Source: Sipunculus nudus
Lineage: Eukaryota > Annelida > Sipuncula > Golfingiida > Sipunculidae
Direction: 5' to 3'
NCBI GenBank assembly: GCA_026874595.1
Contig: CM049316.1
Location: forward strand, 4,602,339 to 4,666,338
Length of the DNA stretch: 64,000 nt
Part shown: positions 25,355-52,097 of the stretch, one piece after another
Position numbering within the stretch: the stretch's first letter is position 1
Layout: every line of letters begins with the position of its first letter
Made by a program: the position numbers and the translations under genes
The notes under the pieces: generated by a model
The model's input: only the letters and a program-made list of their open reading frames with translations
What the model was told of the DNA's origin: nothing
Databases searched by the model: none

Positions 25355-27075
25355 TATGCCCCCGCCACAAAGTGGCCGGGGCATATAGTTTTACCCATGT
25401 CCGTCATTCCGTCCTTCTGTCCTTCCGAAATAAAACAGTTGTACGGACTTTTTTTCGCAATGCCTGCAGATATTGGCCTGATTTTTGGTGTGTGGGCAGA
25501 TAATGACCAGTTACAGATCGAGTTCGCGTTTCGTCCCGGTTGACCTACTTTTGACCGTTTTACGGCTCCTAAACTTAGAATATTTCATGAAAAATATAAA
25601 TTTTCATGACAAATACACATGTACGGACTTTTTTTCGCAATGCCTGCAGATAGTGGCCTGATTTTTTAAGTGTATGTAGATAATGACCAGTTACAGATCG
25701 AGTTCGCGTTTCGTCCCAGTTGACCTACTTTTGACCGTATTACGGCTCCTTAACTTAGAAAATTTCATGAAAAATATAAATTTTCATGACAAATACACAT
25801 GTACAGATTTTTTTTCGCAATGCCTGCAGATATTGGCCTGATTTTTGGTGTGTGGGCAGATAATGACCACTTACAGATCGAGTTCGCGTTTCATCCCGGT
25901 TGACCTTTTTTTGACCCTTTTACAGCTCCTAAACTTAGAAAATTTCATGAAAAATAGAAATTTTCATGACAAATATACATGTACGGACTTTTTTTCGCAA
26001 TACCTGCAGATATTGGCCTGATTTTTGGTGTGTAGGCAGATAATGACCAGTTACAGATCGAGTTTCTTTTTCGTCCCAGTTGACCTACTTTTGATTGTTT
26101 AACGGCTCCTTAACTTAGAAAATTTCATGAAAAATATAAATTTTCATGACAAATACACATATACGGACTTTTTTTCGCAATGCCTGCAGATATTGGCCTG
26201 ATTTTTGGTGTGTGGGCAGATAATGAACAGTTACAGAACGAGTTGGCATTTCGTCCCAGTTGACCTACTTTTGACTGTTTTACGGCTCCTGAACATAGAA
26301 AATTTCATGAAAATATAAATTTTCATTACAAATACACATGTACTGACTTTTTATTGCAATACCTGCAGATATTGGCCTCATTTTTGGTGTGTGGGCAGAT
26401 AATGACCAGTTACAGATCAAGTTCATGTTTTGTCCCAGTTGACCTACTTTTGACTGTTTCACGGTGGTCTAACATAGAAAATTTAATAAAAAAGTGCACA
26501 TGTACGGACTTTTTTTCGCAATGCCTGCAGATATGGGCTTGATTTTTGGTGTGTAGGCAGATAATGACCAGTTACAGATCAAGTTCTTGTTTTGTCTCAG
26601 TTGACCTACTTTTGACCATTTGACTGCTCCTGAACATAGAAAGTTTCATGAAAAATAGAAATTTTCATAACAAATGCATATGTACCAACTTTTTTTCCCA
26701 ATGCCTGCAGATACCACCCTGATTTTTTATGTGTGGGCAGATAATGACAGTTGCAGATCGAGTTCGCGTTTCATCCCGGTTGACCTACTTTTCATTGTCT
26801 TATGGCTCCTAAACATAGAAAATTTCATGAAAGACAGAAATTTTTATGGAAAATGCACATGTATGGACTTTTTTTCACAGTGCCTGCAGATACTGGCCTG
26901 ATTTTTGGTGTGTTGCTTGATAATGACTCGTAACAGATTGAGTTTGCATTTTGCCCTTGTTGACCTACTTTTGACCATATGACACCTCCTGAACTTAAAA
27001 ATTTTTTTCAAAATTTAAACAAATGTTTCTAAATTGCCCCAGGCGGGGGCATTTGTGTCGTTCCGACACATCTAG
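25355..27075 (+). mobile_element. Helentron-like non-autonomous element A, nine 180-bp repeats
   Basis: The 5' end is a hairpin (ATGCCCCCGCCAC, AAA, GTGGCCGGGGCAT). The 3' end carries the inverse terminal motif GGCGGGGGCA (27,042-27,051), then a hairpin TGTGTCG-TTC-CGACACA and TCTAG followed by TTT. A 3' subterminal hairpin followed by CTRR (here CTAG) is the Helitron hallmark; short inverted ends plus a tandem core point to the Helentron-type (HINE) group. The core is nine units of about 180 bp beginning near 25,441, 25,621, 25,801, 25,981, 26,161, 26,340, 26,502, 26,682 and 26,861, the sixth shortened to 162 bp. There is no Rep/helicase frame, so it needs a partner in trans. Confidence 0.75.
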
Positions 27076-27079
27076 TTTG

Positions 27080-30000
27080 TAGTATGATATATATATGTGG
27101 TCAGTGCTTGTGTACTGCTGGACCAGGAAGTACACACAGCATCTTTGCTGTTACTAGTTCTGTGTACAGTGCTACTTTGAGCTGCTGTCAGTTGTAGCAG
27201 AGGAATATGCTGCTATGAGTGAAGCTGTGTATATGTTACCTCGGCTTTGCTTTGCTTGTCTGTGGTTTAAATTAGAATAGGTAGGAGCATATAGTTCACA
27301 GGACACCATATACCCATGTCTGAGGTCAGACAGGGAGAGGAAGCCATGACTGGCTCTACAGTAAATCTGCTTGTCATACTTGATTGGATACTTTGATAAA
27401 AAAGATTACATGGATACTTATTTGATAGTAAACTTGACATAAAAGGATTCTATGGCTGCTTGACAATATATTTAATGGAGCCTCATCATATGTTGTAAGA
27501 TTACATTAGGTTGTACAATTAAATCTACCATTTATGAGGAGTGCTTTCTCATAAGTTCTTATTAGTAAAGTGCAAAAAATATAAAACTGCATTTGTTAGA
27601 GAGCTTCAAGGACAACCACAGTGTAAAACTGCACCTTAGTGGATCAGTTTTATCAGTTTGGATATGTAGTGTTTGCTGAAACTGTGGTGTTAGTTGGAAG
27701 TTTATTCCAGATATAAGAACACCTGCAGGCTAGGCAAGTATTTGCTGCACTTATGATCCATTGTGATGCCAGCTGTATGTATATTTTATTGTTCTATAAC
27801 ACACAGCCACTAGCTGGGTCTGGGGACTGATGTATTAGATTTTAACCACCTCTGATTGTGTTTATACTCTGGCAGGGCACCGTGTACTGTGATGGATATT
27901 TGGGGGAAACAGTGACTCATGGGAAACCGCAATCAGCTTATAATCACACATAATTCCATGCCTGCCATTAATGTCTTCTTATCACTTTGTGTCATATATC
28001 CAGGGTTTGATATGAACAGTAATTCTGCCTGTCAAGAATTACCAACAGTTAGAGACATGCATTAGAGTATAGGAGATTCAGTTTGTTGTAGACATTGTTA
28101 TAAATAGGGCTTAGACAAATGTGATGTTAAGCTAAATCTATAGAAACATGGACATAAAAAAAATCATAAATGTATATCATTAAAATAAATTTTGGATATC
28201 TGCATACTTACTGCTGCACATAAATTTATGAGATGTGGGGGGGGGGGGGGACGAAGTGTAGATCTAATGATTATTAGCATCAGAGGATATGACCTGTACA
28301 AACTGGTTAAGTCATGGTTGTAGCTATCAGTTGTCCACATGAGACATGGATTTGATCGTCACACGGACAAAGGTCGGTGATGTAACAGGTAGGGAGGGTG
28401 TTAAACCTGTAAATGACTGGTCCTGAGTGAATATTCCACTCAGTATCCTTCACACACAGTATTCTGTTTGTGATCTGATGACCACCGTGGTGTTACATTC
28501 TCTCACTAATAGATCCCCTGGGGACCAGAGGAGGAAACCAGAGGAGCTGGGTGTGTATATTTATGGAAATCCCTGCGGTCAAACATTGGATGGCAGGGAT
28601 GGATCCAAAGTTGGGGGGGGGGGGCTTAGAAAATTGAACTCCTCCTTCACCTGAATAAATAACATTTTTTGCAGTGTTTTCGCCAGCGTCAAGGCTAAAA
28701 CCCCTTTCCTGATTTTATTGTTACCATCTTTTAGGGTAATTATTAGTTATGAGTACACAGTAAACCTTTCCCTTCCCAATATCCTTTGATGGGTCAACTG
28801 GTCTTTGTGGTACCCCTGGAGAGTGGTCTGTTCTTCATCAGATCATGTTCATGTAGAGAATGTTACAAAGCCCCAAGGGAGCCAAGATGTTCAGACCAAG
28901 AATAGATGAAAGGTGACAGTCAAGTACCATCTCTCAGGAAGCCTTGCTCTTTTATCACTCAACTGCAGCCAGAAGTTACGGTTTAAATAAATTTTGTAGT
29001 TTTAAAATACACATATCAATATCCATTGATAATTGTTGAATCTGATAACCAATACATACACTCATCCAGTGGCAAACCCTCGATCTTGGTGTGATTACTG
29101 TGATATCAGCAGTTTTAGATCATTATATATTGTCAGCCAGTATAGTACGATCTTGGTAGAATGTTTCTTTTGTCCTTTCTTTGAGCTGTATCTTTTGTTC
29201 GTTCTTTGAGCTGTGTCAAAGCACTTTGCTTCATAATCAGCTAGAGGATTTACTATTGTTACTACTTTTAGGCACTTTTGTTATACTAACGCTATGAATA
29301 ACAGATGTTCACACCTGGCTTGAGAAAACACCCCTTTCTCCATCATCAGCTTGCCCAAGACCTGTGATGATTTAAAGCTCAAATTCACTGGTCAGGTGTG
29401 ATCATCATACTTTAATTTGGCATTGTTACAATGGACTGTCATCATTTTACCTTGGCTTGCTCAGATGCTATTCTTACAATTAAATATTTGTCACTGAATG
29501 TATCATATTTTTTTGGCTCAGTAGCTTGCCCAAGGCCATATCACAAACTGGATATGGTATTTTAGCCAGAAGGTGAAGTATTTGTCTTTTTATGAATTTT
29601 AACTGTATGTAAACATACATCAGATCCAGATCTGTTGAGTACACTTCAACAGCTGGCCGTATGGTCCAGTGAGTGGCAGTGGTGATTCACGCTGTCATAG
29701 ACAGGTATCATTGATTGATTGTCCCTCAGTACCTGTGTATAACACACCTGGGTGCTACCTATGCAAGGTAAGGTATTAGTGAAGTGTATACCTGTCTTTG
29801 TATACAGAAGAATATATCACATATGACCTTGGCAGCAATTCGGGGAGAAATAAAAGCTTCCTGGATTGCAATCGCTGTGCCAGTTTGGTGAATATTGAGG
29901 AAGTTTTCAAGCAGCATATTATAGTGTAAAACTGGGTATATGTGTAACTTAGTATCTTTGTAGACTTATAATATGTATACTATACATAGACAGAAACATT

Positions 30001-30420
30001 TGTTATCAGCAGCATCATCAGGGTATGATAAGTATAATCCAGTTCTTATCTGATAAGGATGTATATGTGGCTGCAGAGCTGGTTGTTATCGTGTGATCTG
30101 TATATATTATCTGCCTATTTAAACTTATATTGATCATGTTTTATACCAGATATATATGCAGAGTCAACTCCTGGAAAATGATTGTCATATGGTTAAAGAA
30201 AAAGTTCTGGGTCTTTTTACATGCAAATAAAAACATGGGTAATTAAAAAAAAATCTATTATAATCAGTTATCAATATTAGACACTTGTGGAAAAAAAAAC
30301 TACAATATGAGTGGAGATAGGGAGTGGTAACATGACTGATATCTCTTTAATATAACCTTAGTTCAGATGAGCAGTGAGTATTGATTTTCAGGCAGATAAC
30401 TGTGATTTCTTTGTATTTAC
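27080..30420. other. no gene recognised; two long G runs
   Basis: No conserved exons. G14 (28,237-28,250) and G12 (28,613-28,624) occur. Sequence at 28,490-28,555 includes CCAGAGGAGGAAACCAG, possibly an inverted SINE-body fragment. A donor-like GCAAG|GTAAGG at 29,768 could end another 5' exon. Confidence 0.4.
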
Positions 30421-30422
30421 AG

Positions 30423-30608
30423 ATGTTGGTGCTGATTCAATTTTCAAGGGGCTGCGCTTATGATATCCATGTGAACACTTTATAAAAACTACAAGAACTT
30501 ATCGACAATGCTCAGTCATGAGAGAGCTGCCCTATCTTACATAGGGTTAAACTGGCCTCTTTGATGGGCTATTGAGTATTTATAAGTGGAGATATTCTTT
30601 CAGCAAAT
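30423..30608 (+). promoter_or_regulatory. SNX16: 5' UTR part of SNX16 exon, two possible acceptors
   Basis: Two acceptors could open the first coding exon: TATTTACAG ending at 30,422 and TTCTTTCAG ending at 30,603. The second leaves only five untranslated bases before the ATG. An in-frame TGA at 30,573-30,575 lies upstream of the ATG, so the protein cannot extend upstream without splicing. Confidence 0.55.
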
Positions 30609-31397
30609 ATGGATATTAGTGGTGGTATTGAGAGCTCTGCTCCTACTTTCAAACCCATTGAAGTACTGGCAAGCAGTACCCCTATACGAAATAATGACGT
30701 GGGTGCATTAGGCAATAATAACATTGAAGATATACACAGGGTGCCTCCTCTTGTGGATGTTGATGTGTGCAGACCTGAAGCTGATAATTATAATGGTGCT
30801 GATTTAAAAAAATACAGGGACACAGTGACAGAAGAAAAGACTGTGGATCCACCCTCAAAATGTGGGTGTACGCAACAAATGGTGGAAGAATTCAGGGACA
30901 GTCATAATAACATCAGATCCAAGAAAACACACCCATGTGCATGTAGTTGTAATGTTGATAGTGAAGTGTCACCATCGGAACAAAATGCTGATCTCCAGTG
31001 TACTTCAAACACAACTGATCAGGAAGAATTCTGTGATATCTCTGACATTGACATTGCTAGTGAAAACCCTCCCAGCCAAGTCAAAACTAATGTTAACCAG
31101 TCTAAAGTAACACAAACAGCATCTAGCTCTCATCCTCCGCATCATTCATCTCCAGCTACATCATCATCATCTTCATCATCTGCATCAACGATGTCCACCA
31201 TTGAAAAAAGAGGTGTGAGTCCTGATGGACCATCCAGGACAGAAAGCGAGGTGACAAACTCTGAGGCAGAAGCAGGGTCATTTAGGACTGCTGTCGGTGA
31301 TACTGAAACAACCAATACAGGAGTTATTAGTGCTAGTGAACGCGTGACTGCACCAATATTAGGATATGAGATCATGGAACAACGGGCCAGGTTTACA
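30609..31397 (+). CDS. SNX16: sorting nexin 16, coding exon 1 (N-terminus, start of PX domain)
   Basis: SNX16 is a PX-domain sorting nexin that binds PI3P on endosomes and guides endosome-to-lysosome and recycling traffic. The family match is clear: this exon ends ILGYEIMEQRARFT (residues 250-263), the conserved entry to the SNX16 PX domain, and the later exons continue it. The 249 residues before it are probably disordered: acidic and Ser/Thr rich, with a seven-serine run from a TCA/TCT triplet repeat near residue 185. Odd for the family is a cysteine group, C85xC87 and C110xCxC114. The vertebrate protein is about 344 residues; the model here gives about 511 (538 with exon 7), most of the excess being this N-terminus. 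The ATG sits in a fair context (AATATGG) just after an acceptor. The exon ends phase 0 at a GTAAGT donor (31,398); the following intron to 32,336 shows no other feature. Confidence 0.92.
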
Positions 31398-32336
31398 GTA
31401 AGTATGGTGTATTTTATGATGCGAAATCATGAAGCAGTTTGCCAGTTTTAAAAAAAGGATTATAAATAGGAATATAAGTTAGTTTTACCAGAAATATTAC
31501 AATTTGTATACAGCGATGGAAAACTACAGGCTTTGGCTATCCACCCTATTTACTGCCAGTATTGCAGCAGTATTGCCATACAGATGCTGCAATCATAATA
31601 TTTCTTGTGAATGAGTGTGGAAATGCCACAAAAGAATGTACAAATGAAAGTGTAAATCCCATCTCTATTGTAACTGCCTTAATTTCCTGTGTCTCACTTT
31701 GATGCCATTAACACAACCTGTGTGAGACATGATTGTATGAGGTCAGAAACTGATCAAATATGCAGGGAGAATCTTTTATGCAGAGGGTGATTTTAAAACA
31801 TCTTTAACAGTTGGTCTTGTTCAATTTAAATTACAACAGTCCTTTAGGCTTTGAGGCATTATAAAAATGACAGAAAGATTTGTTCCATCATTAGGATATT
31901 CAGTGCCATTTTTAGCCAAGTAAATCATGCCATTAATAATTAATAAATTTGCTTGTTTCACCGCAGCAAAATGCTGCTCCGCTTACTGTGATCTACCAAT
32001 GGACAGTCATTATTGTTAAAATGTTTAACATTAATACTGATTAGGTACCGGGTAGTTAATATGCTGAATACATGGATAGATTTCTGATTATCTGCAATCT
32101 GATAATCACAAATGTTGTAGCATGTCAACATTAAGGCTGGGGCAGATCACCACAAGATTTTGTGAGATTGAATATAAAGAGTGAAAGCGCCACCTTACCA
32201 CAAAAGTTCACAAGACATTATGATGCAATATTAAGGTTTTGCTATATATATTACCGTTAATCATGGGAGAATTTAATATACAATATTAATATTAATATTG
32301 TGGGATAAATGTTCAAATTATTATTTCTGTAAACAG

Positions 32337-32423
32337 GTGTTCAAGCTGCAAGTTCAGAAGGGTGACCTTGACAGCTGGTTTATTTTTCGACGTTACTCCG
32401 ACTTCCACAGGCTCAATGAACAG
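32337..32423 (+). CDS. SNX16: SNX16 coding exon 2 (PX domain, PI3P-binding arginine)
   Basis: This 29-codon exon runs from an AAACAG acceptor to a GTGCAA donor, phase 0 at both ends. It encodes strands beta-2/beta-3 of the PX domain, ending in FRRYSDFHRLNEQ. The RR(Y/F)xDF motif (residues 281-286 in this model) supplies the arginine that contacts the 3-phosphate of PI3P in PX domains. The match to SNX16 is continuous with exon 1 across the junction (ARFT|VFKLQV). The intron after it (to 32,964) shows no other feature. Confidence 0.95.
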
Positions 32424-32964
32424 GTGCAAACTCATTAACTGTATATGAATAATGTCTTCATATGCATGTGATGTCCTGCATAGTAATTTGGTAGTGTGTA
32501 TTCTCCCCAAGCAAGTTTACCAGTAGTTATTATTTATATTTTCTTTTACAAAATTTGATCAGTTAGACAGAGATTTATATAAATTGCTATCCAGTACAAA
32601 TACAGTGATTCACCTAATGAGTGAGCTGAACCCTTTTTTGTATAAAATAGAATTCATGGGGATTCACAGGAGATAGTGAGTCATACCTTAGTAATGAAAG
32701 AAATAATTTCCTGCTTGGTCAAAACTCCAAACAAGTTTCTGATGGTGTTGATGTTAGTCTCCAGAAATATTGATCTCTCTTGTTAATCTGTTTGATATAA
32801 TGTTGATGTATAATACACTTCATTTATTTTATACTTAGAGGAAGTATTTATACATAAAACACTGCATGATTCTGGCAGAGCCTTCTCACCTGTTCTCCAT
32901 TTTAATTAAATAAACAATTATTATTTATAATAATGAATACCCATAAGGTATCCTTATTTTTCAG

Positions 32965-33113
32965 CTGCGACTGTTGTTTCCAAGGTTTCGTTTGTCTTTA
33001 CCACCAAAGAAATGGTTCGGGGACAACTTTGACCGTGACTTTATTGAGGATCGGATGCTTGGTCTCCAGGCGTTTGTTAACAATGTTCTTGGTCATCCTG
33101 ATATCGTACAAAA
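32965..33113 (+). CDS. SNX16: SNX16 coding exon 3 (PX domain core)
   Basis: It follows a TTTTTCAG acceptor and ends in phase 2 at a GTAAGT donor. It encodes the PPK loop and following helices: [17 protein letters not shown], then [18 protein letters not shown]. The lysine after the two prolines (residue 307) and the arginine of EDR (residue 322) are PI3P-contacting positions in the family. Both are present, so the domain looks able to bind lipid. Intron 3 (33,114-34,294) carries three copies of an ACTCxxCACCGTTAC motif described separately. Confidence 0.95.
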
Positions 33114-33756
33114 GTAAGTGCTAGCGTGCAATTAACTGGGTAACAGGCCTGGTCCATTCAATAAATCCCTGTTCATTCAGAGAAACTGATAAAAATACTG
33201 GTACTCTGATACTTTCTAAGTAAGAAAATACTTGATATAATATGAAACAATGTTTAGATAAGTTATCCTCAAGTGCACTGTTATCGACACTGTGTAATTT
33301 TATCATTTAAAGGGATTGACAAATATACTTCTATAGTATCTGTACATTGAAGGTTTAATGGGTATTTCTACAAAAAATGTTGCATTTCATGTCCCGAAAC
33401 TATATTTGTTACTGAGAAATTAGCAAATGCTAAAAATGACATGAATAACCATTCAGATTGTTGCTAAAGATATAACCATTATTATGAGATAAAAATAATT
33501 TAAATCGGGGCAGAAATACATACAGAAAAAAAGCTGCAAATGTTAGTATTCCCTTAAATTTCCGTTGTCCCTTTCTCTCGGATCTTAAATTCAAAACAGC
33601 GTTTTTCTGTAACCACTGTTCCATTTATATAGATTTTGTTTTCCACGTTGTCACAGCGGTGAAAGTTTATTAAGATGATATTTTTGCTTGATTTTTCCTG
33701 ACTGTTTTGTTTTTAATACAAAAATTTGGATATAAAAAGTATGTCTCCCAAAATAT

Positions 33757-34118: not shown

Positions 34119-34294
34119 ATAGTTCATACCTACCTTCCTTCCTCACTCACTCCATTCCATATGTTTCATTGTAATGATTTTTGGATTTATAGACTTCTGT
34201 GAAAAAAATAAAGCCATTGAAATGAGCTTGCTTGGAAAGCATTTCATTCAGTATATACTCCAATGTATTTAATTGAAGTATTTCATGTTTTCAG

Positions 34295-37103: not shown

Positions 37104-37109
37104 AATAAA
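37104..37109 (+). terminator. SNX16: possible polyadenylation signal for the short SNX16 isoform
   Basis: AATAAA lies 460 bp downstream of the read-through stop of exon 6. It is a single hexamer in AT-rich DNA, so chance occurrence is likely. Confidence 0.25.
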
Positions 37110-37746: not shown

Positions 37747-38019
37747 GTAAGCAGCATCTGCTCGTAACGTGCATGTATCTGTCATGCATGGTTAGTGTCT
37801 TACCAGCTGTAATATACCATCGGTCTGTCCCATGGTCAAACATCAAAACATTTTGTAGTAAAAAAACCTTTTCCTCCCATTCAAGCTCTGGCACCATGTT
37901 TAATTGTCCGTTTTGAATCACTGATTATAAAGATCTAGGGATTTAACTGTAGAGACATTTGAAAGTATAGCAAATAGTATTTTGTCATGAGACATAAGGG
38001 CTGTATTTGTGATGGAGCA

Positions 38020-39475
38020 CCACAGTTGACAGAATGGTGCAGTAGTTTACAGAGCACTTCCTCAGTTTACAGAATGGTGCAGTAGTTGACAGAGCACTTC
38101 CTCAGTTGACAGAGTGGTGCAGTAGTTGACAGAGCACTTCCTCAGTTGACAGAGTGGTGCAGTAGTTGACAGAGCACAGCCTCAGTTGTTAGAGTAATGT
38201 AAAAGTTGACAGAGCACTTCCTCAATTGACAGAGTGGTGCAGTAGTTTACAGAGCACTTCCTCAGTTTACAGAGTGGTGCAGTAGTTGACAGAGCACTTC
38301 CTTAGTTTACAGAGTGGTGCAGTAGTTGACAGAGCTCAGCCTCAGTTGATAGAGTAATGTAATATTTGACAGAGCACTTCCTCAGTTGACAGAGTGTAGG
38401 AGTAGTTGACAGAGCACAGCCTCAGTTGATAGAGTGATGTAATAGTTGACAGAGCACTTCCTCAGTTGTCAGAACGGTGCAGTAGTTGACAGAGCACAGC
38501 CTCAGTTGACAGAGTGATGTAATAATTGACAGAGCACTTCCTCAGTTGTCAGAACAGTGCAGTAGTTGACAGAGCACAGCCTCAGTTGATAGAGTGATGT
38601 AATACTTGACAGAGCACTTCCTCAATTGACAGAGTGGTGCAGTAGTTGACAGAGCACAGCATCAGTTGATAGAGTGATGTAATACTTGACAGAGCACTTC
38701 CTCAATTGACAGAGTGGTGCAGTTGTTGACAGAGCACAGCATCAGTTGATAGAGTGATGTAATACTTGACAGAGCACTTCCTCAATTGACAGAATGGTGC
38801 AGTAGTTTACAGAGCACTTCCTTAGTTTACAGAGTGGTGCAGTAGTTGACAGAGCACTTCCTCAGTTGACAGAGTGGTGCAGTAGTTGACAGAGCACAGC
38901 CTCAGTTGATAGAGTAATGTAAAAGTTGACAGAGCACTTCCTCAATTGACAGAGTGGTGCAGTAGTTTACAGAGCACTTCCTCAGTTTATAGAGTGGTGC
39001 AGTAGTTGACAGAGCACTTCCTCAGTTTACAGAGTGGTGCAGTAGTTGACAGAGCTCAGCCTCAGTTGATAGAGTAATGTAATAGTTGACAGAGCACTTC
39101 CTCAATTGTCAGAACGGTGCAGTAGTTGACAGAGCACAGCCTCAGTTGACAGAGTGATGTAATACTTGACAGAGCACTTCCTCAGTTGTCAGAACAGTGC
39201 AGTAGTTGACAGAGCACAGCCTCAATTGATAGAGTGATGTAATACTTGACAGAGCACTTCCTCAATTGACAGAGTGGTGCAGTAGTTGACAGAGCACAGC
39301 ATCAGTTGATAGAGTGATGTGATACTTGACAGAGCACTTCCTCAATTGACAGAGTGGTGCAGTAGTTGACAGAGCATAACCTGTGTTGATAGAGTGATGT
39401 AAAAGTTGACAGAGCACCACCTCAGTTGACTGAATGATGTAATAGTTAAGAGAGCACCTCTGTTGACTGAACTCT
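38020..39475. repeat. 20-bp minisatellite with 40/80-bp higher-order units
   Basis: About 72 units built on TTGACAGAG. Four unit types recur: ..CACTTCCTCAG, ..TGGTGCAGTAG, ..CACAGCCTCAG and ..TGATGTAATA. They assemble into 40-bp and 80-bp higher-order units. A block of about 600 bp is duplicated within the array: 38,101-38,380 matches 38,821-39,100 at an offset of 720, rare variants such as GAGCTCAGC included. From 38,461 the offset is 640, because the second copy lacks one 80-bp unit. The array lies in the SNX16 intron after exon 7 and is non-coding. Confidence 0.95.
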
Positions 39476-39479
39476 GAGT

Positions 39480-40305
39480 AGCACATATATGTCTTGGCTG
39501 ATCTGACTAAAGAACTTTATTAGTTGACATATATACTGCTTTTTTGACAGAGCGCACTGTTCTTTTCATGAAGCATTCTGTTGACATATAAAATGTCATA
39601 TTATGATATCTGTTTCTATTGACAGAAGAGCATGTTTGTTGACAGCTCTTGGATTGTGTTGACATTTTAGTGTCTGTCAGTACTGACAAAGCAAATCTTT
39701 GTTGACAGAAGGCTTTGTTTGTTGACAGCTCTAGGACTGTGTTGATATTTTTTGTGTCTGTTAGTATTGACTGAGGAAATTGTTTGCTGACAGAGGACTT
39801 TGTTTTTTGACAGTTCTAGGACTGTGTTTCCATTTCAGTGTCTGTATGTATTGACAGAGTGATTCATTTGCTGACATAGATTGTTGTTTGGTGAAAGACC
39901 TAGGAATGTTTTAACATTTCAGCATCTGTTAGTATTGACAGAGAAAATTGTATGTTGACAGAGGACTTTGTTTGTTGACAGCTCTAGGACTGTGTTAACA
40001 TTTAAGTGTCTGTGAGTGTTGACAGAGCAAATCTTTGTTGACAGAGGTCTTTGTTTGTTGACAGATCAAGGACTGTGTTGACCATTTTGGCGTCTGTTAG
40101 TATTGAGAGAGGAAATTGTTTGTTGACAGAGGACTTCATATTGGCAGTTCAAGATATTTGTTGACATTGTCTCGTGACATTTCAGTGTGCACATTGATAT
40201 ACCAGTGTGTACATTGATTGATCGGTGTTTGTTGACAGAACAGTATTTCTGTTGACAAGTCAATCTATCTGAGACACGACTGTTTTGTTTGTGACCACAC
40301 TTCAT
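39480..40305. repeat. decayed ~82-bp tandem array sharing the TTGACAGA core
   Basis: At least six diverged units carry TTTGTTGACAGCTCTAGGAC, then GTGTTGACATTT, AGTGTCTGTTAGTATTGAC and AGAG.AAAT. They begin near 39,626, 39,718, 39,806, 39,888, 39,970 and 40,051. The shared TTGACAGA core suggests that the young 20-bp array next to it arose from this older one. Confidence 0.75.
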
Positions 40306-41665: not shown

Positions 41666-41699
41666 ACACACACACATACACACACTAATATGCATGTAT

Positions 41700-44470
41700 A
41701 GACATATGCTCCTGTTAACCATGTGCATGTTCCTTATATTATTAACATGACCATGTCATCAGATTAACCAGTTCATTAAAGCATGCCTTTGATTTTGTTG
41801 ATCTTGATTTTTTGTTTTACAAAAGGGAAAATGAAAAATAATAAATTACAGTTGAATATATCTTTAAATAGGGCATTTGTTCTTCTTCAGTGCCTGTTGA
41901 ACAAAAATGTTTCTCTCTTTCAAAACTTTAATTCAAAATCAATTAAAAAATCAGTTGAAGGATTCAGGATGGCCCCAAATGGAATCAAACATGGCTAAAT
42001 ATTTCAGATTCTGATGATGTGTGAACTGTGATCAAAAATGATGTAATGCTTGCTTCTTTCAAATTAAAACTTGTTAGCATTCATGTGGATTTACAGTATG
42101 TTCAGAAATAGATGCAGAAATGGGTTTATGGTCATTTTCACATGTAAACATTGATGAATGAAGAAAGAAACAGCATCTCATCATGTTAAATCAGAGAACA
42201 AACCTGATTTATTTTTTTAAAGAAATTTTTCTTTTTTTATCTCATCTTTTTGGTTGCATTATCTCTATTGACAGTTGTGTGTATTTAGAGAGAATTTTCA
42301 TTTTCCCTGACACATGCATTAAAGCTTCAGGTTGTAATTTTCTTGACAAACATGTTGAATGCATGATGTTCAGTTTATCAAGGCAGCATGTTGCATAAAA
42401 AGTCAGTTTCCTTACAGTTTCAGGATAATTTAAAAGTGATAAAACCTATTTTTAAGTATTTTATTTTTCAAAATGTTTGTCACCATTATGCTTACATATG
42501 TATGTCTGTATAGAACTCCAACCAAAGGGATGTTCATAAAAGTGATAACAGATATTAAAAATTAATAGATGATAATTTTAATTAATTATAGCAATAATAT
42601 GTTCAGTAATGATAATGAGACTACTTAATATTTGTCAGCATTTTATGCTTTTTTTAAGGCTTTATTAAGATGTTTAATGTAGCATGTATATACCTTACAT
42701 AGGACTGTTTTTGTCAGGATCTCATAAGGTTTATTATATAACACTTAAAATAAACTCCTTGAAAAGCCATACACTGTGATCATGGGATTGTTAAATATAT
42801 ATTCCCAAATATTTTCATTAATGCAGCATATTGATCGTATACTGTTCTGAAATTGCCACATGTGCTTTGAACAAAAATACATATAATATCCTTATAAAAT
42901 GGACCTCAGGGAGACATTTCACCTAAGTAATTTGCATTACAGATATTAATTGTTTGTGAAAATATAATCATGGTATTGAACTCACTGTATGGCAGTCATG
43001 ATTAACAAACATAATGGACAAGCGATTTGCTGTGGGAGCATAGTAATTGATGGAACTTAATAATTTGCAGTATAGGATAATCACCAGCACCGTCCAATTA
43101 AACATCCCCCCTTGTGATTCATTAATCATTGATTAGTTTCTATCTGTGATGGTGTAATTTGTCTGTTATTTGCCTGTCCTTAGCAGAAGATTCATCACAA
43201 TGGTGTTGTAAATTAAATCGGATGATTAGATAAATAGTGATTATACCTTGCCAGGTGTATGTTATAAATTAATAACATAATGATACTTTTTGCTATCTGA
43301 GTAGATAATATTGATATATCTGAAACAGACTTCCTTGATAGGCATTTCATGACTGTGATGTCATGTTCCACCCACACCCAGCCAGTTTCCCCTCATTCTG
43401 TCTGTGGTGTATGTTGGTGTTATGATGAAACTGTGAGGTATTGTCATCAGGATTGGTGTACACATAGTACATCTGGCACAGTAAATTTAAATGTTGCTTA
43501 TTTTACTAAATCATAATTTGAAATGACTCGTATAAATTATGTGTGATAATACAACACACACCTTATAAGATAAAAAAAATATATTGTTACATGATTTAAA
43601 TTCAGCATTACTTAAATAAGCCTGTTTTGTTCAACTATTAGATATTACAGAAATGATATAATACCATAATTTTGCTCATACAACAGCACATACAGATTTT
43701 AATGAATTTGCAACAAAATTGAAAATAAAAAATATAAAAGATGTGTGGATTGTGTTTAAAAATCTAAGGCCACCCAAATGTATTGTTTTATGGATTAATT
43801 TAAAATCATATATTTTGTCTGCATCTTGTTTCAGTGAAGTTGATTTTGTCAGTTCATGCTTTTAAAGTGATCAGTAATGAAGGGCTTGAGCATTGTGTAT
43901 TTGTACCTTAATGATGAATAACATTTATACTTTACTGTATTTTAAGAGTAAAATTAAAACATGAAATATTGGGAAAAAAGTACTGGTAATGAACTAGAAA
44001 TATTATGCTGGGAATAAGAGAATAAAACTTTGTAAAAAGGTTTGGAATGTTAAGGAGAAAAGTATCCAGTCTGGCAGTGAAAGAATTCTAGATTAAAAAA
44101 AAATATCTAATCTTGTGGGGTGAAACTCAGAATTCTAGAAAAAACTATAAAACCATACGATAAACTCTTTTCAGAAAAAAGTTAAAACCTTTCAAGAAAA
44201 CCTCCAATTTAAGAAAAGTACAAAATCTTGCTAGTAAAAGAATCAAGATTGAAAGACATGAATAATCCTGTAAGAAAAAAAGACTTAAAAGTGTAAATGA
44301 AGTACCAGAATCATCTTAAAGGTATAAATTGAGAGAACAAAATGTGCAGCTTTTAATCCGATGCATCAGATTCCAGTGGAAAATTATTACTTCACTTTTA
44401 AGAAACGGGCCTTAAGGATGTCTCGTGACAATCTTCCAATGCTGGTTTATTGTATCTTTTTACTTTTTCA
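41700..44470. other. SNX16 intron sequence, no feature
   Basis: AT-rich, with no exon, repeat array or transposon that I recognise. Confidence 0.5.
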
Positions 44471-44475
44471 CGCAG

Positions 44476-44631
44476 CATCGAGCGTTCTCTCAACATCAGC
44501 AGCACCGCATCAGGGACTTCTCCAAGTAAAAGTGAGAATTCTCTACCAGAGGGGGACCGGGCCACCTCCTCTGCCAACACCAGTGCTTCAACAGCAGCTG
44601 AAGCTGACCAGCATTGCTCGCTGACAGCAAG
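44476..44631 (+). CDS. SNX16: SNX16 probable coding exon 8 (low-complexity tail)
   Basis: The exon follows a TTTTTCACGCAG acceptor and stays in phase 2 at both ends. Joined to exon 6 it reads TVSL-S-IERSLNISSTASGTS and continues as a Ser/Thr/Ala-rich, probably disordered tail ending HCSLTA. The donor AAG|GTATCA is moderate. Without splicing the frame ends at 44,696-44,698. The unequal tail length of SNX16 proteins leaves little to compare, so the call rests on phase, splice sites and codon-like composition. Confidence 0.6.
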
Positions 44632-44850
44632 GTATCAGCATCTACAAATTTGTCCCACACTTTGGATAACTAGTTTAACTAGTCGGATATTCACCTAACT
44701 TTTCCGTAGAATTGATGTGAGCTCTGATTTACTCTGCACGCATATTAACAAATTGTTGGTAATTCCTGTTCAGAATATTTATTTTAATACATCTGTGATG
44801 AATGTACAAGCTTTTTAATTTACAAGCTGTCAGTATACAAGGTGCATGGA

Positions 44851-45141
44851 CAAATGTTCACAAACAGAAAAAATCATTTAACCTAAGGTGGTATGCTGCT
44901 TAATGTGCAGAAATAGAAAGGACACTAGTTGCAAAACCGCCTTTGCAAAACTCTGGTTCATCTGACTTGCTGCTAGATTCTCTTGTTGAATGTGTTTGGA
45001 TTATTTGGCACGTACCCCCCACATGATATAAACAAAATTAACAACCTGTGTGAGTTTGGATTGGTGGTTTCTGTCCTGTATTTATAAAATTTTTATATTG
45101 AAGGGATTACCTTTAATAGATCTGAAAATAGGCCCCTTTAA
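44851..45141 (+). repeat. dispersed repeat family R1, copy 2
   Basis: It begins near ACAAACAGAAAAAATCATTT and shares AACCTAAGGTGGTA, AGTTGCAAAAC and TGACTTGCTGC with copy 3. It ends GGCCCCTTTAA, the inverted end of the MITE at 15,432. It lies in the last SNX16 intron. Confidence 0.7.
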
Positions 45142-45541
45142 CAATTGTATTTTATTCAAACATTGTGCAATGTCAGGCTTTATGTTTAATCACTCAGTCC
45201 AAGCTATGTTCTGGGATTTATTGATTGATCCCTGTCACTTCAGTATCCAACTTGTCTCTGTTGAAAAACCCATCTTTATGGGTGATCAGTGCCATCTGGT
45301 GTCCAGTCTGTGGAATAATGTTTCACTGTAATGTCTAAGGGCTTACAATTCTTTCCTTATTATATGTTAAGTCTTGGAATTTTACAAAAATTATATCACA
45401 ATGATGTATTTACCAGTCAAAATTACAAGAGACCTTTTTAAATATTCAGAAAATTGAAAATATTATTTGCTGAGCAACACTTTATATCAAAATCAGGATG
45501 ATAGTAACTACAAGCAAAATTTAATGGGCTACATGCACTGC

Positions 45542-45543
<2 letters not shown>

Positions 45544-45615
<72 letters not shown>
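45544..45615. repeat. (TA)n microsatellite, about 36 units
   Basis: An uninterrupted TA run lies 62 bp upstream of the acceptor of the last SNX16 exon. Such runs are length-variable and can fold back in RNA. Confidence 0.95.
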
Positions 45616-45619
<4 letters not shown>

Positions 45620-45677
45620 TTAATTATTTATATATATTGTATATTATGATAGTTTAATATCTTTATTATATTTTCAG

Positions 45678-45774
45678 CTCTGATCTTGAGAAGAGTGCAG
45701 ACACTGTCGTTCTGTGTAAACCAGAGCCAGCGGTGAAGGGGGACCATCTCCCTCAGCCACTGACAGCAAGCTAG
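45678..45774 (+). CDS. SNX16: SNX16 probable last coding exon 9
   Basis: The exon follows TATTTTCAG, completes a Ser codon with exon 8 and encodes SDLEKSADTVVLCKPEPAVK then GDHLPQPLTAS, stop TAG at 45,772-45,774. Its end repeats the end of exon 8 (CTGACAGCAAG in both). It continues the acidic/polar tail expected after the SNX16 coiled coil, but the family is not conserved here. The 3' UTR is not defined: a Helentron-like element starts 250 bp downstream and the nearest canonical AATAAA I noticed is near 49,353. Confidence 0.6.
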
Positions 45775-46023
45775 GATTACTGTCACTGTTATACATTGTA
45801 TATAAAGTGGTATTTTAAAAATGTTGTTATGGACAGTTTATACCACTTACAAAATACAGTCTGTGATTTATGCAAGCTTGTCAAATTTTGTCAAATGTTC
45901 TGTCTCTCAAATCAAATATGTTTATGTAAAAACTATACATTGTGATGATGAAATCCCAGGTCATAAATTTAGCATAATATTAATTTATGTGACACATCAT
46001 TAATTGCACCATTTGTTTTTATT

Positions 46024-49000
46024 AGCGAACCTGTGAGCTTATGCGATGGTGCGGCGTCGTCCGTCGTGTGTCGTGCGTTGTGCGTCGTCTGTACGTTAAC
46101 CATAGCTATCTCAAAAACGGCAGGAGCTAGCATCACCAAATTTTTTGCAAATATTCAGTCATCCAAAAAAACTATATCACATTTTGTTTATTTTTTTCCT
46201 AACTGCATTTTCTTAGATTTTATAGGGAAAAAGCTAAAAAAACTTTAAAATCTTCTCCTCTGAAACTGTCCAGCCAAATTGTCCAATATTACACAGATAT
46301 GATCCCTGGAACAATCTTTCTCAAGTTTGTTCAAATGGTTCCAGTTTGGAGATTTTTGGCTGAGTAAAAGGAGGTTGAACTTTGTTAACTGTGCAAAAAA
46401 GCATATTAAAATTTAAATCTCAGAAACGGCTGGAGCTATCATCACCAAATTTTATGCCAATGTTGGTCACATGAGTCATATCTGAAATTGAGGTATTGGT
46501 GGCGCCACCTGCATCGGCCTTTTTTGTACGGGGTCATCAGTGCCCGTATCACACTGACAGCTAGAAATAACTTCTTTTCTGAAACGAAATGGCCAAATTG
46601 TTTAATATTGCACAGAAATGATCCTAGGGTAGTGCTTTCTGAAGTTTGTTCAAATGGTCTCAGTTCAGTGACTTTTGGCTAAGTTATGGGAAGCTGAATT
46701 TAGTCATATGCCATAACAGCCCATTTTAGCTAAGTGGCTACAAAAATCTTCTTCTCAAAAACCACTGGGCCAAATTCTTAAATCATACACATTAATTATC
46801 CTTAGATGTTGATAATTCAAGTTTGTTCAAATGGTCTCAGTTCAGTGACTTTTGGCTGAGTTATGGGGAGCTGAATTCAGTCATATGCCATAACAGCCAA
46901 TTTTAGCTAAGTGGCTACAAAAATCTTCTTCTCAACAACCACTGGGCCCAATTCTTAAATCTCACACATTAATTATCCTGAGATGTTGATAATTTCAAGT
47001 TTGTTCAAATGGTATTAGTTCAGTGACTTCTGGCTGAGTTATGGGAAGCTGAATTTAGTCATATGCCATAACAGTCCATGTTAGCTAAGTGGCTACAAAA
47101 ATCTTCTCAAAAACCACTGGGCAAAATTCTTAAATCTCACACATTAATTATCCTGAGATGTTGATAATTTCAAGTTTGTTCAAATGGTCTCAGTTCAGTG
47201 ACTTTTGGCTGAGTTATGGGAAGCTGAATTTAGTCATATGCCATAACAGCCAATTTTAGCTAATTGGCTACAAAAATCTTCTTCTCAACAACCACTGGGC
47301 CAAATTCTTAAATCTCACACATTAATTATCCTGAGATGTTGATAATTTCAAGTTTGTTCAAATGGTCTTAGTTCAGTGACTTCTGGCTGAGTTATGGGAA
47401 GCTGAATTTAGTCATATGCCATAACAGTCCATGTTAGCTAAGTGGCTACAAAAATCTTCTCAAAAACCACTGGGCAAAATTCTTAAATCATACACATTAA
47501 TTATCCTTAGATGTTGATAATTCAAGTTTGCTAAAATGGTTTTGATTCAGTGATTTTTGGCTGAGTAATGGGAAGCTGAACTTTGCCATTTTGTGTATTT
47601 TCCCATATGAGTTATAAACCTACAAAACGTTTTTCGACTGATGATGATACTGAGGCCAGTTTCATTATTATTTTGCAAGAATAATTCCCTGGATCATTCT
47701 TATAATAATTGTCTTTTATGGTTCCAAAAAATGAATTTGGCTGAATTATAAAGATTGAATTGAGTCATTTTACCAAATATGTTAGCTGTGTGAAGCAGAT
47801 ACATCTAGCCTAGCACCAGTTTATCAGCATCCATTACATCATGCCTCTAGACATTTAGATTTCAGGTTATCTATGGAAAATATTGACAAGAATGTTTTTA
47901 AAAGCTTTTAAAAAATGTAGATTTATGATATTACATATCATCTGTACACTAACTCATAATTTCTCAGGAATAGCAGGAGCTACCATCCCCAAATGTTATG
48001 CAATTGTCTGTCACATATCAAATGTTGATGGATTCATCTTATTTTTGCTATCTGCATTTACTTAGATTTTACAAGGAAAAAGCTGAAAAAAACTTGTAAA
48101 AGTCTTCTTCTTGTAAACAGTCCAGCCAAATTGTCCAAATTTTTACAGAAATGATCCCAGAGGCAAGCCCTCTCAAGTTTGTTCAAATGGTTTGTGTTGG
48201 ATAAATTTTAGTAGAGTTACATAACAGGCCAAAATTGTGTACGTTTCTTGAATAGGTTGAGAAACTGCCAACTGTTTCAGATTTGGCAACAGATCAAGAG
48301 TTCATTCAGTGCAGCCAAATATAGGTCAACAGTTCAGTCAGTGCAGCCAAGCACAAGGCATGTGATCACCTCATGGGCAGCATGTGATCATCTCATGGGT
48401 AGCATGTGATCACCTCATGAGTATCATGCGATCACCTCATGGGTGTCATGCCCCTCAGGGCTGCATATGGAGCCAATCTGTGAGCTTATGCAATTGTGTG
48501 GCTACTATTTCAGATTTGGCAAATGGCAAAAGGTCAGCCTGGATTTATTTATAGCTTTGGCAGACTGCCAACTGTTTCAGATTATGCAACAGGTCAAGAG
48601 TTCACTCAGTGCAGTAGCCTGAGCCAGTAATTTGTCACAGTACACTCAGGGCAACAGCCTTTCTCACCTAAGCCTGGTCAGCCCCGTGCATCAGACTCAA
48701 GGTAAGTTTGATTTATTGGCCTGATATTCTGACCTGACTATGTGTTTTTATGGCTTTCTCGTTCACAAGACAGGTGTCGCCATCTACAATGACTTTTGCA
48801 AAGTGTATTTGCCTGCTTAATTCTACAGAAGAATTTGATATATCAGCCTGAAATTGGGCATATGTGTACATGTCAAATAGCTTTGTTGTATACAAGACTG
48901 GTGGTGCCACCTACAATAATTTTTGTGTTGTGTGCACCCATGCCAGAATTTCAGCAGTGATGTTTGTGTATTGTTTCTTGTTCAAAATGTTTAGTACTTG

Positions 49001-49097
49001 CATTGTTCATATATATGAAAAGTAGTGGTTCAGCACTGAAGCGTTATACCTGGTGTATATCCATATGCACAGGTTCGCATTAGGCCTGTAGGCCTTG
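46024..49097 (+). mobile_element. Helentron-like non-autonomous element B with ~177-bp repeats
   Basis: The 5' motif AGCGAACCTGTG is inverted at the other end (CACAGGTTCGC, 49,068-49,078), followed by a hairpin AGGCCTGTAGGCCT (49,082-49,095) and a T run. The leader is CpG rich with GTCGTCCGTCG and GTGCGTCGTC repeats. The core holds five close copies of a 177-bp unit (CCACTGGGC landmarks near 46,762, 46,939, 47,114, 47,292 and 47,467). Units 2 and 4 resemble each other and units 3 and 5 do, so the working unit is a dimer of about 353 bp. Part of the leader recurs, diverged, at 47,940-48,230. No protein is encoded. The 3' end is less typical than in elements A and C (no CTAG). Confidence 0.65.
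48359..48450. repeat. 22-bp tandem repeat, about four copies
   Basis: The unit GCATGTGATCACCTCATGGG plus two bases is repeated inside element B, with a TGATCA palindrome in each complete unit. Confidence 0.8.
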
Positions 49098-49099
49098 TT

Positions 49100-50345
49100 T
49101 GGGATTTTTTTGGTAAACTTTACAGTTTAGATTTTAACGTCTTGTTACAACATACTGTTCATCATATGTCAGTGTTTTTCCATAGGTTTAACTGTAAAGT
49201 TAAGTCTTTGTCTTTTTATGGTTTTACTTTTTTGTGTGATGGTTAGCACTGTCTCAGGACTTTAACATTCTAGGCATTATCTATTCCTTTCATTTATTGG
49301 ACTAAGTCAGCTGGTCTAAAATATTCTAATCACCAATGATCAGTGGTGTTTTAATAAATACTCACTTTATTTATTTCAGCAGAAATAAGTATTAGTTTAT
49401 ATTCGACTCAACTGCTAAAATGTTCTTCTACTGGTAAAAATTATCTCTTGTGTTGAATTTCCATGGCAACAAAACCTATTTCCATAGATATGATTTTTAA
49501 ACCTTTGTGTCATTTACTCTTTATTTACCTGATTTGAAATATTTGTGATGTTAAAACTTTGATACCTTTATATTCCAGTTATTACCAGTACAGATGTAAA
49601 GCTCTGTGCTGTATGTCCCCTCCTCTCAAACCAAAGTCTCATATTTGCATCAGGAAAAAATATGACAAAAATCCATTTAACATCAGACTATTTTGAATAA
49701 GTTGTTGGTTTAATGATTAACCTTTTACATGGTGTATGTAGTTATGTGTGTCATACAAAGCAAATTATTTTAACATCCGATGTTACCCGGCATTTCTTTC
49801 TTCAGCTCATCATGTTTGAAACAAATGTTGCCCTCTGATGTCAAATAGATGTACTAAAACTCAAGGCTCGCACATACTACACTTAATGTTATCTCTGTAT
49901 TCCTCATTCTGTTGTCTCCACCATCTGTATAAATGTTTTGGTGTTATATTTCATACAAAATATAATAAATTCCTCAATAGCATAAAAGATAGGGAAAAAA
50001 ACTGTATGGTATACTGTATATTATCATGACTGCTGAGACATTAGGAATGTTAGGACATTGTCTTCTGTTTAGAAGTTTTACATCATTCACATCACATTTT
50101 ACATAATTGCCTCTCATTCTTGCATGTCCATGTATAAAACTTTAAATGGCTGGCCTGTTGGTCCACTCTTATGCTTGATCTCTAAACCCCATAGTTTTCA
50201 TCAAGATTACATGCATCAGCCGTTCATTCCCTCAGAAGCCACCTTTCTTATAATACAAAATTTATTTGCTAAATGTCAACACAAGTAGCTGTTGTAAATG
50301 TAAATGTAAAGACAGAAATAATTGCACTTAATCCCATTTTTAATT
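49100..50345. other. no gene recognised
   Basis: Unique-looking AT-rich DNA between elements B and C. AATAAA near 49,353 and near 49,967 could serve SNX16 transcripts that read through element B, which is speculative. Confidence 0.4.
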
Positions 50346-50351
50346 ATATTT

Positions 50352-50396
50352 GTATCCGCCAAAACAGAGTTTTGCGGATACTATGTTTTCAGCTGG

Positions 50397-50457
<61 letters not shown>

Positions 50458-52097
50458 GTAGGTGTCCGGAGAACTCCTCCGTAACCGCTGGGCGGAATTT
50501 TCCGAAACCCGGGATTATGTTCGGGTCACATGTGAACTGCTGCGCCCCGATTTTGTTTTGACCTCTGACCTTTCCTCTGCGCTCTGCGTCCGTTTGTGCG
50601 TCTGTTTCCACACATAAACCCACATATCTCGGGAACCGTTTGACCGATCAGGAAAATTTTTTTGCACAAATGTAGCCCTCGGAGAGCTTTATAACATACA
50701 CCAAAAATGGTGGCGCCACCTGCAACCATGTTTGCACAGTGTCCATCTGTTCGTCTGCCTTGGGTTAAAATCACTCATATCTCTGCAGTGACTTGACTAA
50801 TTCACCTGAAATTCGGCATGCGCAAACATCCTGGATAGCTTTTCTGATTTTATGACAGGTGGCGCCACCTACATTCACGTTGACGCTGCAGACATCCAAG
50901 CTCATATCTCGGGAACCGTTTGACCGATCAGGAAAATTCTTTTGCACAAATGTAGCCCTTGGAGAGCTTTATAACATACACCAAAAATGGTGGCGCCACC
51001 TGCAACCATGTTTGCACAGTGTCCATCTGTTCGTCTGCCTTGGGTTAAAATCACTCATATCTCTGCAGTGACTTGACTAATTCACCTGAAATTTGGCATG
51101 CGTATACATCCTGGATAGCTTATCTGATTTTATGACAGGTGGCGCCACCTACATTCACGTTGACGCTGCAGACATCCAAGCTCATATCTCGGGAACCGTT
51201 TGACCGATCAGGAAAATTCTTTTGCACAAATGTAGCCCTTGGAGAGCTTTATAACATACACCAAAAATGGTGCCGCTACCTGCAACCATGTTTGTACAGT
51301 GTCCATCTGTTTGTCTGCCTTGGGTTAAAATCACTCATATCTCTGCAGTGACTTGACTAATTCACCTGAAATTTGGCATGCGTATACATCCTGGATAGCT
51401 TTTCTGATTTTATGACAGGTGGCGCCACCTACATTCATGTTTACGCTGCAGACATCCAAGCTCATATCTCAGGAACCGTTTGATTGATCAGGAAAATTTT
51501 TTTGCACAAATGTAGCCCTTGGAGAGCTTTATAACATACACAAAAATGGTGGCGCCACCTGCAACCATGTTTGCACAGTGTCCAGCTGTTCGTCTGCCTT
51601 GGGTTAAAATCACTCATATCTCTGCAGTGGTTTGACTAATTCACCTGAAATTCTGCATGCTTATACATCCTGGATAGCTTTTCTGATTTTATGACAGGTG
51701 GCGCCACCTACAATCAAGTTTACGCTGCAGACATCCAAGCTCATATCTAGGGAACCGTTTGACCAATTGGGCCAAAATTTTGCATGTGTATAGTTCTCAC
51801 AAAGCTCTTTATCATACGCTAAACTGGTGGCGCCACCTGCAACCCTTTTTTGCACAGCGTCCATCTGTTTGTCTGCCAAGGGCAAAAATCACTCATATAC
51901 AATATAGTGGTTTGACTTATCTGCCTTAAATTTTGCATATGTATACAACTTGGACGGCTTTCTGGATTTTTTGGTAGGTAGCGCAACCTACATACACAAT
52001 TTGGCTGCAGACATCCATGCTGATATGCAACACTTCACCCGTTCCACTCTGATTTAGGCGGATACAAGTAGTCGCTTGTCGACTACCCGTATTCTAG
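50352..52097 (+). mobile_element. Helentron-like non-autonomous element C with 280-bp repeats
   Basis: The 5' end is a near-perfect hairpin (GTATCCGCCAAAAC, AGA, GTTTTGCGGATAC). The 3' end carries the inverse motif GGCGGATAC, a hairpin GTAGTCG-CTTGT-CGACTAC, then CCGTATTCTAG followed by TTT. CTAG after a 3' hairpin fits the Helitron end rule. A (GCC)n run lies near the 5' end. The core has about five units of 280 bp (starts near 50,623, 50,903, 51,183, 51,463 and 51,742), each made of two related halves of about 140 bp centred on a palindrome GGTGGCGCCACC. Two near-identical 70-codon frames (50,859 and 51,139) are by-products of the repeat. No enzyme is encoded. Confidence 0.78.
50397..50457. 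repeat. (GCC)n trinucleotide run, about 20 units
   Basis: A perfect run inside the 5' part of element C. It makes artificial poly-Ala, poly-Pro and (reverse) poly-Gly frames. A microsatellite near the 5' end is common in Helentron-type elements. Confidence 0.95.

Follow-up and report, generated by a model that had tools for sequence, protein, structure and literature searches.

Three tandem-core elements in a Sipunculus nudus contig

The window analysed here, a stretch of 64,000 nucleotides from contig CM049316.1 of Sipunculus nudus (C11:4,602,339-4,666,338; assembly of 1.43 Gb in 153 contigs), carries on its plus strand three elements, named A, B and C, in which a short 5' motif returns inverted near the 3' end and an array of tandem repeats lies between the two. 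The original prediction had proposed a shared end architecture behind unrelated sequences, and the analysis bears this out, the predicted starts being right within one base. No open frame of at least 130 aa overlaps A, B or C in the window.

Element A (25356-27075, 1,720 bp, edges set from 13 copies) lies in a T run and begins with a 5' hairpin (25356-25384; DNA fold -12.3 kcal/mol, z -4.30), in which the arm formed by the subterminal inverted repeat (subTIR; 25356-25366) has a mismatch at position 8 and is followed by a 3-nt loop and a local inverted repeat reaching to 25384. Its core, called like all tandem cores and microsatellites described here with Tandem Repeats Finder, holds 8.8 copies of a 180-bp unit (25440-27004), and its 3' end (27042-27075) consists of the inverted subTIR (27042-27052), a hairpin with a 7-bp stem and a loop of 3 (27054-27070; z -3.81) and a terminal CTAG (27072-27075), followed by host TTT. 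Element C (50352-52097, 1,746 bp, edges from 17 copies) has a 5' hairpin (50352-50381; -10.8 kcal/mol, z -7.88) whose subTIR arm (50352-50360) contains a one-base bulge at position 8/9 and whose loop is again of 3 nt, a (CGC)n microsatellite (50398-50457) between the 5' end and the core, 5.0 copies of a 280-bp unit (50623-52026), and a 3' end (52057-52097) with the subTIR at 52057-52065, a hairpin of 7-bp stem and loop 5 (52068-52086; z -2.34) and CTAG at 52094-52097, then host TTT.

Element B (46024-49097, 3,074 bp, edges from 13 copies) starts with a subTIR (46025-46035) that has no local inverted repeat, followed by a CGTC-rich microsatellite-like stretch (46054-46089) and 5.3 copies of a 178-bp unit (46642-47580). 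Its 3' end (49068-49097) comprises the subTIR (49068-49078), a short hairpin (49082-49095; 5 bp, loop 4, z -1.52, not significant alone), which is unchanged in the 12 other B copies listed, and CTTG (49094-49097) before host TTT. A degenerate second B 5' end occurs inside the element (48,471-48,502; 84% over 32 bp), as if two B-like pieces had built it.

The 5' motif is repeated perfectly in inverted form in each element, as ATGCCCCCGCC in A (11 bp), GCGAACCTGTG in B (11 bp) and GTATCCGCC in C (9 bp), and the 3' copy ends 23, 19 and 32 bases, respectively, before the 3' edge. Likewise, the predicted CTAG termini of A and C were found, B ending in CTTG, and the tandem core differs in unit length among the three elements, the cores being unrelated in sequence. 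The claim of a 3' hairpin in every element stands clearly for A and C, that of B being short and weak alone. A scan of the window for the architecture as a whole returned two sites on the plus strand (A and C) and none on the minus strand, against three in 20 first-order Markov sequences, and it overlooks B, whose hairpin overlaps the CTTG; the reality of the elements is better settled by copies with differing flanks than by a chance scan.

Genome copies, insertion sites and mode of transposition

Whole-genome searches were made with five end queries for A, B and C, four of which included flank, and for each query the best 40 strong matches out of 1,910-3,902 candidates were scored, the window itself among them. 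Apart from the window, most matches stop within a few bases of one place per query, namely about 27,078 for the A 3' end, 46,019 for the B 5' end (in the T run before 46,024), 49,100 for the B 3' end and 52,100 for the C 3' end. For the study of copies, 12 further loci per family were fetched together with five C loop variants, and both ends could be paired in 12/12 A, 12/12 B and 16/17 C loci; the loop variant L074 had no paired 3' end and was left out, so that 43 paired copies (13 A, 13 B, 17 C), window copies included, were analysed. The five loop variants also served to dismiss the idea that different cores stand behind one C 5' end, since all of them are older C copies with the 280-bp core.

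Single-base variants aside, A copies read ATGCCCCCGCC ... ATCTAG (1,193-2,602 bp, n=13), B copies AGCGAACCTGTG ... GGCCTTG (2,349-3,127 bp, n=13) and C copies GTATCCGCC ... TTCTAG (1,113-2,009 bp, n=17), one C copy ending in ATAG. Counts of end patterns over both strands with no mismatch, for which the reversed-pattern control was 0 each time, gave 2,824 genome matches for the A 5' hairpin (free loop and free base opposite position 8), 5,406 for the C 5' hairpin (free loop) and 3,662 for the B 3' end, where the two free bases were TG (CTTG) with one CTTA exception among the matches listed. Genome-wide copies sharing both ends were expected, and the 43 paired copies are of this kind, alongside thousands of end-pattern matches. 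Including a further family, F, described below, single end-pattern matches of four families range from 2,824 to 25,390, which marks this genome as rich in elements of this kind.

The borders of the copies are equally uniform. TT precedes the 5' end and follows the 3' end in 43/43 paired copies, and the flanks are all different, no two being alike; at the 5' border, 12/13 A and 11/13 B copies have five or more T in a row, and C copies have TT or longer. Joined flanks, with up to 100 bp per side, were compared with the window and the fetched loci, and 65 alignments span a junction. Among them, at least 6 of the 43 copies have a paralogous empty site with an identity of 80% or more across 149 bp or more, and at these sites no target duplication other than T residues was seen, in agreement with the insertion between T residues that had been predicted. 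These pairs are the A copy L009 with L072, the B copies L017 with the window at 14.4-14.5 kb and L020 with L011 (and also with the window, over 144 bp), and the C copies L033 with L018, L035 with a site within another C element and L075 with L073. Moreover, the B copy L020 keeps the length of its T run, with 5+3 T around the insert and 8 and 7 T in two empty sites.

Unit number differs between copies, as anticipated: counting as full those units with at least 80% of the reference unit length, we found 3-14 in A (13 copies), 1-5 in B (13) and 1-6 in C (17), with five full units in 12/13 young C copies (12 fetched plus the window). The nearest relative of a C unit is the unit at the same position of another copy in 62/80 cases and a unit of its own copy in 8/80, a kinship which indicates that arrays are mainly copied whole and that changes of length are occasional. 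The corresponding figures are 28/82 and 15/82 in A and 4/34 and 7/34 in B, so there is more array turnover in A and B than in C. The predicted independent expansion of tandem cores holds between families; within C, whole arrays have mainly been copied. In A, unit positions are further disturbed by the insertion of part of another family, G, whose 5' end (AGCCCTCAGC...) lies within the core of 9/12 fetched A loci (L001-L006, L009-L011) and not in the window copy; these copies form a composite A subfamily, which went on multiplying after the insertion of the other element.

We interpret A, B and C as three unrelated families of non-autonomous Helentrons (HINEs) moved by rolling-circle replication, a reading to which we assign a probability of roughly 0.92 and which agrees with the Helentron-type identity originally proposed. 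It draws on the precise ends, the TT borders, the empty sites, the varying unit number, the lack of long open frames and the Helentron-type proteins encoded in the genome. In the mechanism that we infer, a Helentron would supply in trans a Rep/helicase/endonuclease protein that nicks the DNA at the T|A or T|G junction preceding the 5' subTIR; a single strand would be peeled off 5' to 3', replication would stop at the 3' end formed by subTIR, hairpin and CT[A/T]G|T, and the strand would be joined into a T run with no target duplication. The tandem core would then be a passenger copied whole at each transposition, its unit number altering occasionally.

Several observations weigh against this interpretation. 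The loci were chosen mostly as best-scoring matches, so intact copies are over-represented; B has no 5' inverted repeat or hairpin (fold z +0.54); and the C subTIR of 9 bp is shorter than the 11 bp used for family definition in PMC4067079 and than the published range of 11-15. Besides, blastn comparison of five 10-kb Rep loci with 3' extensions and of pieces of other Rep loci, covering a minority of the 143 Rep matches in the genome, revealed no autonomous relative bearing the ends of A, B or C, the sole end match being a nested B fragment in the Rep locus L040. Finally, the empty site of the C copy L033 and the weaker one of the B copy L024 do not have the T run seen beside the insert, so some terminal T may belong to the element and travel along, as reported in PMC4067079.

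The last observation would suit cut-and-paste miniature inverted-repeat transposable elements (MITEs) with terminal inverted repeats and a TA or TT target duplication, as would the high copy number, the short inverted repeats, the missing long open frame and the TT on either side, readable as a 2-bp duplication. We regard this origin as improbable, because the 3' inverted repeat lies 19-32 bases inside the element edge with a hairpin behind it, the T-run length is conserved at the B copy L020, and the ends read CTWG|T as in rolling-circle elements. Those same ends bring in a slightly less probable alternative, canonical Helitrons with 5'-TC, 3'-CTRR and insertion between A and T. In A and C a hairpin is followed by a terminal CTAG|T, and intermediate forms are already published, such as proto-Helentron-Pi, with 5'-TT and 3'-CTAG and inserting between A and T (PMC4067079), lepidopteran Hel-2, with 5'-TC, 3'-CTAG and a 5' inverted repeat (PMC4344730), and oyster elements mixing both feature sets (PMC7992393). 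However, the 5' end is T|A or T|G and not TC, TT stands on both sides in every paired copy, B ends in CTTG, and the five Rep loci examined all carry RGSPHxH, the motif with S that is given as the Helentron signature (PMC4067079).

The tandem and variable cores might also suggest that the dispersed unit is a satellite array spread by its own recombination, with the shared ends being incidental. This is the least likely of the explanations considered and hardly credible to us, as the similarity between copies stops at the element ends and not at the array ends, and the same-position kinship of the C units implies that arrays move with the element.

Hairpin shape and the Helentron proteins of the genome

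The original prediction went further and suggested one machinery recognising structure rather than sequence. Part of the evidence agrees with this. The 5' folds of A and of family F are identical in dot-bracket form (7 pairs, a 1x1 mismatch at position 8, 5 pairs, loop of 3), that of C is close (8 pairs, a one-base bulge placed at 8 or 9, 5 pairs, loop of 3), and the 5' end of family E, found beside the Helentron protein of locus L037, is similar by eye (7 pairs, bulge, 7 pairs, loop of 3). A, C, E and F therefore have 5' hairpins of similar shape, and in each case the 3' repeat pairs perfectly across the unpaired base. Moreover, the five families whose 3' end was seen (A, B, C, E and F) end in CT[A/T]G|T save for single-copy variants, with CTAG in A and C (ATAG in one C copy), CTTG in B, CTAG or CTTG in E, and CTTG or CTAG in F and its Helentron. 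On the other side stand the missing 5' hairpin of B, the presence of several groups of Helentron proteins in the genome, and the exact 3' end that the Helentron of locus L041, the only autonomous element with a 3' end that could be defined, shares with a HINE family of its own, family F, which is as expected if each family has its own partner. The recurring hairpin shape thus favours recognition that is partly structural and is no proof of a single machinery.

The lone defect of the 5' hairpin recurs with some regularity. A hairpin scan of 347 kb (window plus fetched loci), asking for at least 11 pairs with no or one defect after TTT, gave 51 matches, against 2 in the reversed sequence, and none of the 51 was a perfect hairpin; the scanned sequence was chosen for holding these families and is no fair genome sample, and many of the 51 are one-base-shifted duplicates. 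The base opposite arm position 8 is G in 0/13 A and 0/10 F copies, the matching 3' base is G in 11/12 A and 11/11 F copies, 17/17 matched C hairpins are bulged, and by eye the pairing base is absent in every listed F and A copy (about 100 listed of 25,390 and 2,824), these within-family listings not being independent, as copies descend from few masters. Against a position-8 rule, family G has its single defect placed elsewhere (a 3' bulge, with a loop of 6), B has no 5' hairpin in which to place one, and the defect is shifted by one or two positions in two E variants.

It is possible, if rather doubtful, that Helentron ends are read largely by shape, that the lone 5' defect is functional and that families with unrelated letters are able to share machinery. 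Under such a reading, the 5' end would be recognised as a hairpin made up of about 7 bp, a single unpaired base close to arm position 8, a further 5-7 bp and a 3-nt loop, and the 3' end as a hairpin ending in CTWG|T; the 5' arm would pair perfectly with the distant 3' subTIR and imperfectly with its own neighbouring repeat, and the defect would keep the 5' repeat from passing as a 3' end and halting replication at once. If this were true, new families could arise by letter swaps under a fixed shape. The single defect that returns in otherwise unrelated 5' hairpins gives a simple and testable rule for how the two ends are distinguished. The ends of Drosophila INE-1 and of oyster elements may have the same defect, which is not counted as evidence here. 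The passages and search listings consulted mention neither a bulge nor a mismatch in such hairpins, and PMC2374699 calls the 5' repeat 'partial and/or interrupted'.

Proteins of Helentron type are present in the genome. Helitron_like_N gave 143 genome matches (best 150 of 195 candidates scored), 7 of them in open frames longer than 2,000 aa, and none in 14 control genomes. According to Pfam, the protein of locus L037 combines Rep, PIF1, endonuclease/exonuclease/phosphatase, OTU and DUF6570 domains, that of L038 has Rep, PIF1, the endonuclease/exonuclease/phosphatase family and DUF6570, and the main frame of L041 encodes Rep, PIF1 and DUF6570, an endonuclease-like stretch, recognised by eye only, lying beyond the scanned frame. 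Some Rep elements have tandem repeats just past the frame, of about 330 bp in L044-L046.

Autonomous relatives with shared ends, which the original prediction had advised looking for, were recovered for the 3' end of family F; the examined Rep loci yielded none for A, B or C. The L041 element and its copy L085 on another chromosome share 99.2% identity over 382 bases and diverge precisely at ...GCGCCGTGACCCATGGGTCCCT[T/A]G|T, a point that follows TCAGCTGAGCGCCGTGACCCATGGGTCCCT[T/A]G and after which L041 continues with TTT and L085 with TG. A third copy, L084, lies 209 kb from L041 and is 98.8% alike past this point, so it is a duplicate of the region. A 27-base 3' end of L041 type has 9,935 genome matches with at most one mismatch (control 0). 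Among five fetched loci with this end, L092 resembles the Helentron at 85% for some 650 bases before the end, and in the remaining four the match at this end is confined to the final 39-67 bases. Upstream, and oriented the same way, two of these five loci carry TTTTT|AGCTCAGCTGACTnTAAGTCATCTGAGCTATAG, the 5' end of family F (a T run followed by AGCTCAGCTGACT), whose 5' hairpin pattern (free as for A) has 25,390 genome matches. Family F is thus a fourth HINE family, and it shares its 3' end with the autonomous-type Helentron of L041. This Helentron is at least 15.9 kb long, two other copies being still 97-98% alike at the far edge of the fetched sequence; a search of the 15.9 kb preceding the L041 3' end did not reveal the F 5' end, the element extending further, and the link between the Helentron and F consequently concerns the 3' end only.

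Traces of F also occur in the window. A degenerate copy lies on the minus strand at 4101-5486, its 5' end at 5486 and its 3' end at 4101 (93.9% over 33 bases and 87.5% over 32 bases in the end search), and at 24,600-24,614 there is a 15-base perfect match to the F 5' end after a T run with nothing further, either a truncated F end or chance.

The L037 region has features of its own. About 24 kb around a Helentron protein gene is repeated at C7:31,565,575-31,589,515 and C11:50,374,841-50,398,999, 98-100% alike wherever compared, and a third place on C17 is 98% alike over 1.7 kb sampled; the repeat is a giant element or a segmental duplication. A Helentron end was not identified in the approximately 24 kb shared by L037 and its near-identical copy, which contains nested family E arrays. 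In L037 with L042 (C11:50,371,000-50,388,800), family E elements with 148-bp cores stand head to tail downstream of the Helentron protein gene, the 3' end of one E element being immediately followed by the 5' end of the next, and a unit of about 1.9 kb is repeated.

Relation to known systems and other features of the window

The closest parallels to A, B and C are known from other animals. Cg_HINE of the Pacific oyster (PMC7492417) likewise has a 5' subTIR, an inverted repeat, a microsatellite, a satellite-like core of 140-180 bp, a 3' subTIR and a palindrome; it is likewise inserted at T-rich sites without duplication, and its group 3 consists of unrelated families with unrelated cores in one genome. 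The likeness is one of architecture as described, from which the 280-bp unit of C and the missing inverted repeat of B depart. DINE-1/INE-1 of Drosophila (PMC2374699) also shares the interrupted or partial inverted repeat by the 5' subTIR, the variable central repeats, the 3' hairpin and the TT insertion. It has 13-bp subTIRs and a GTCY microsatellite, and in D. willistoni it occurs as three types differing in subTIRs and cores. DINE-1 is stated to be without CTRR-like termini, whereas CTAG terminates A and C and CTTG terminates B. HINE-Mo of the mite Metaseiulus and autonomous Helentrons (PMC4067079) resemble our families in their palindromic subTIRs, 3' palindrome and TT insertion, and Rep/helicase/endonuclease proteins with RGSPH, like their partner, occur in this genome too. 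For Pearl of bivalves, with short arrays of repeats of about 160 bp inside HINE-type ends, and for the bivalve elements DTC84 and MgE, of comparable architecture, the likeness is by description only, as told in PMC7492417.

The systems differ more in what is known of their partners. HINE-Mo elements are deletion derivatives of a partner that was found (PMC4067079), whereas here only the 3' end is shared, and only by family F; the oyster authors were unable to connect any autonomous Helentron with a HINE (PMC7492417), whereas F is linked at its 3' end and A, B and C are not. A Helentron sharing its 3' end with a HINE family of about 10,000 3' ends is a concrete partner to test; the moving partner of the oyster HINEs is stated to be unresolved (PMC7492417).

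That structure is kept while sequence changes was already argued by Yang and Barbash 2008 (PMC2374699), and the architecture, the structure-over-sequence idea and the association of different subTIRs with different cores have all been published between PMC2374699, PMC4067079 and PMC7492417. Our elements are thus new families of the published HINE type, including the tandem-core type of Drosophila and the oyster, through which, as is known, satellite-like DNA becomes dispersed in animal genomes. In the passages and search listings consulted, neither the position-8 regularity nor the 3' link of a Helentron to family F was seen in print.

The remaining features of the window lie outside the three elements. 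Three long minisatellites were observed, with 42 copies of a 30-bp unit at 21,410-22,695, parts of which are open in a frame on each strand, 18 copies of an 80-bp unit at 38,018-39,471 and 6 copies of an 84-bp unit at 39,619-40,136; the end search in the window found no A, B, C, E or F ends in them. On the minus strand, an open frame at 9,469-9,867 has a weak RVT_1 match (E 0.00068, below the Pfam cut-off) and is probably an old retroelement fragment. Between A and B, a 291-aa open frame on the plus strand (30,576-31,451), with no Pfam match, may be a host gene exon.

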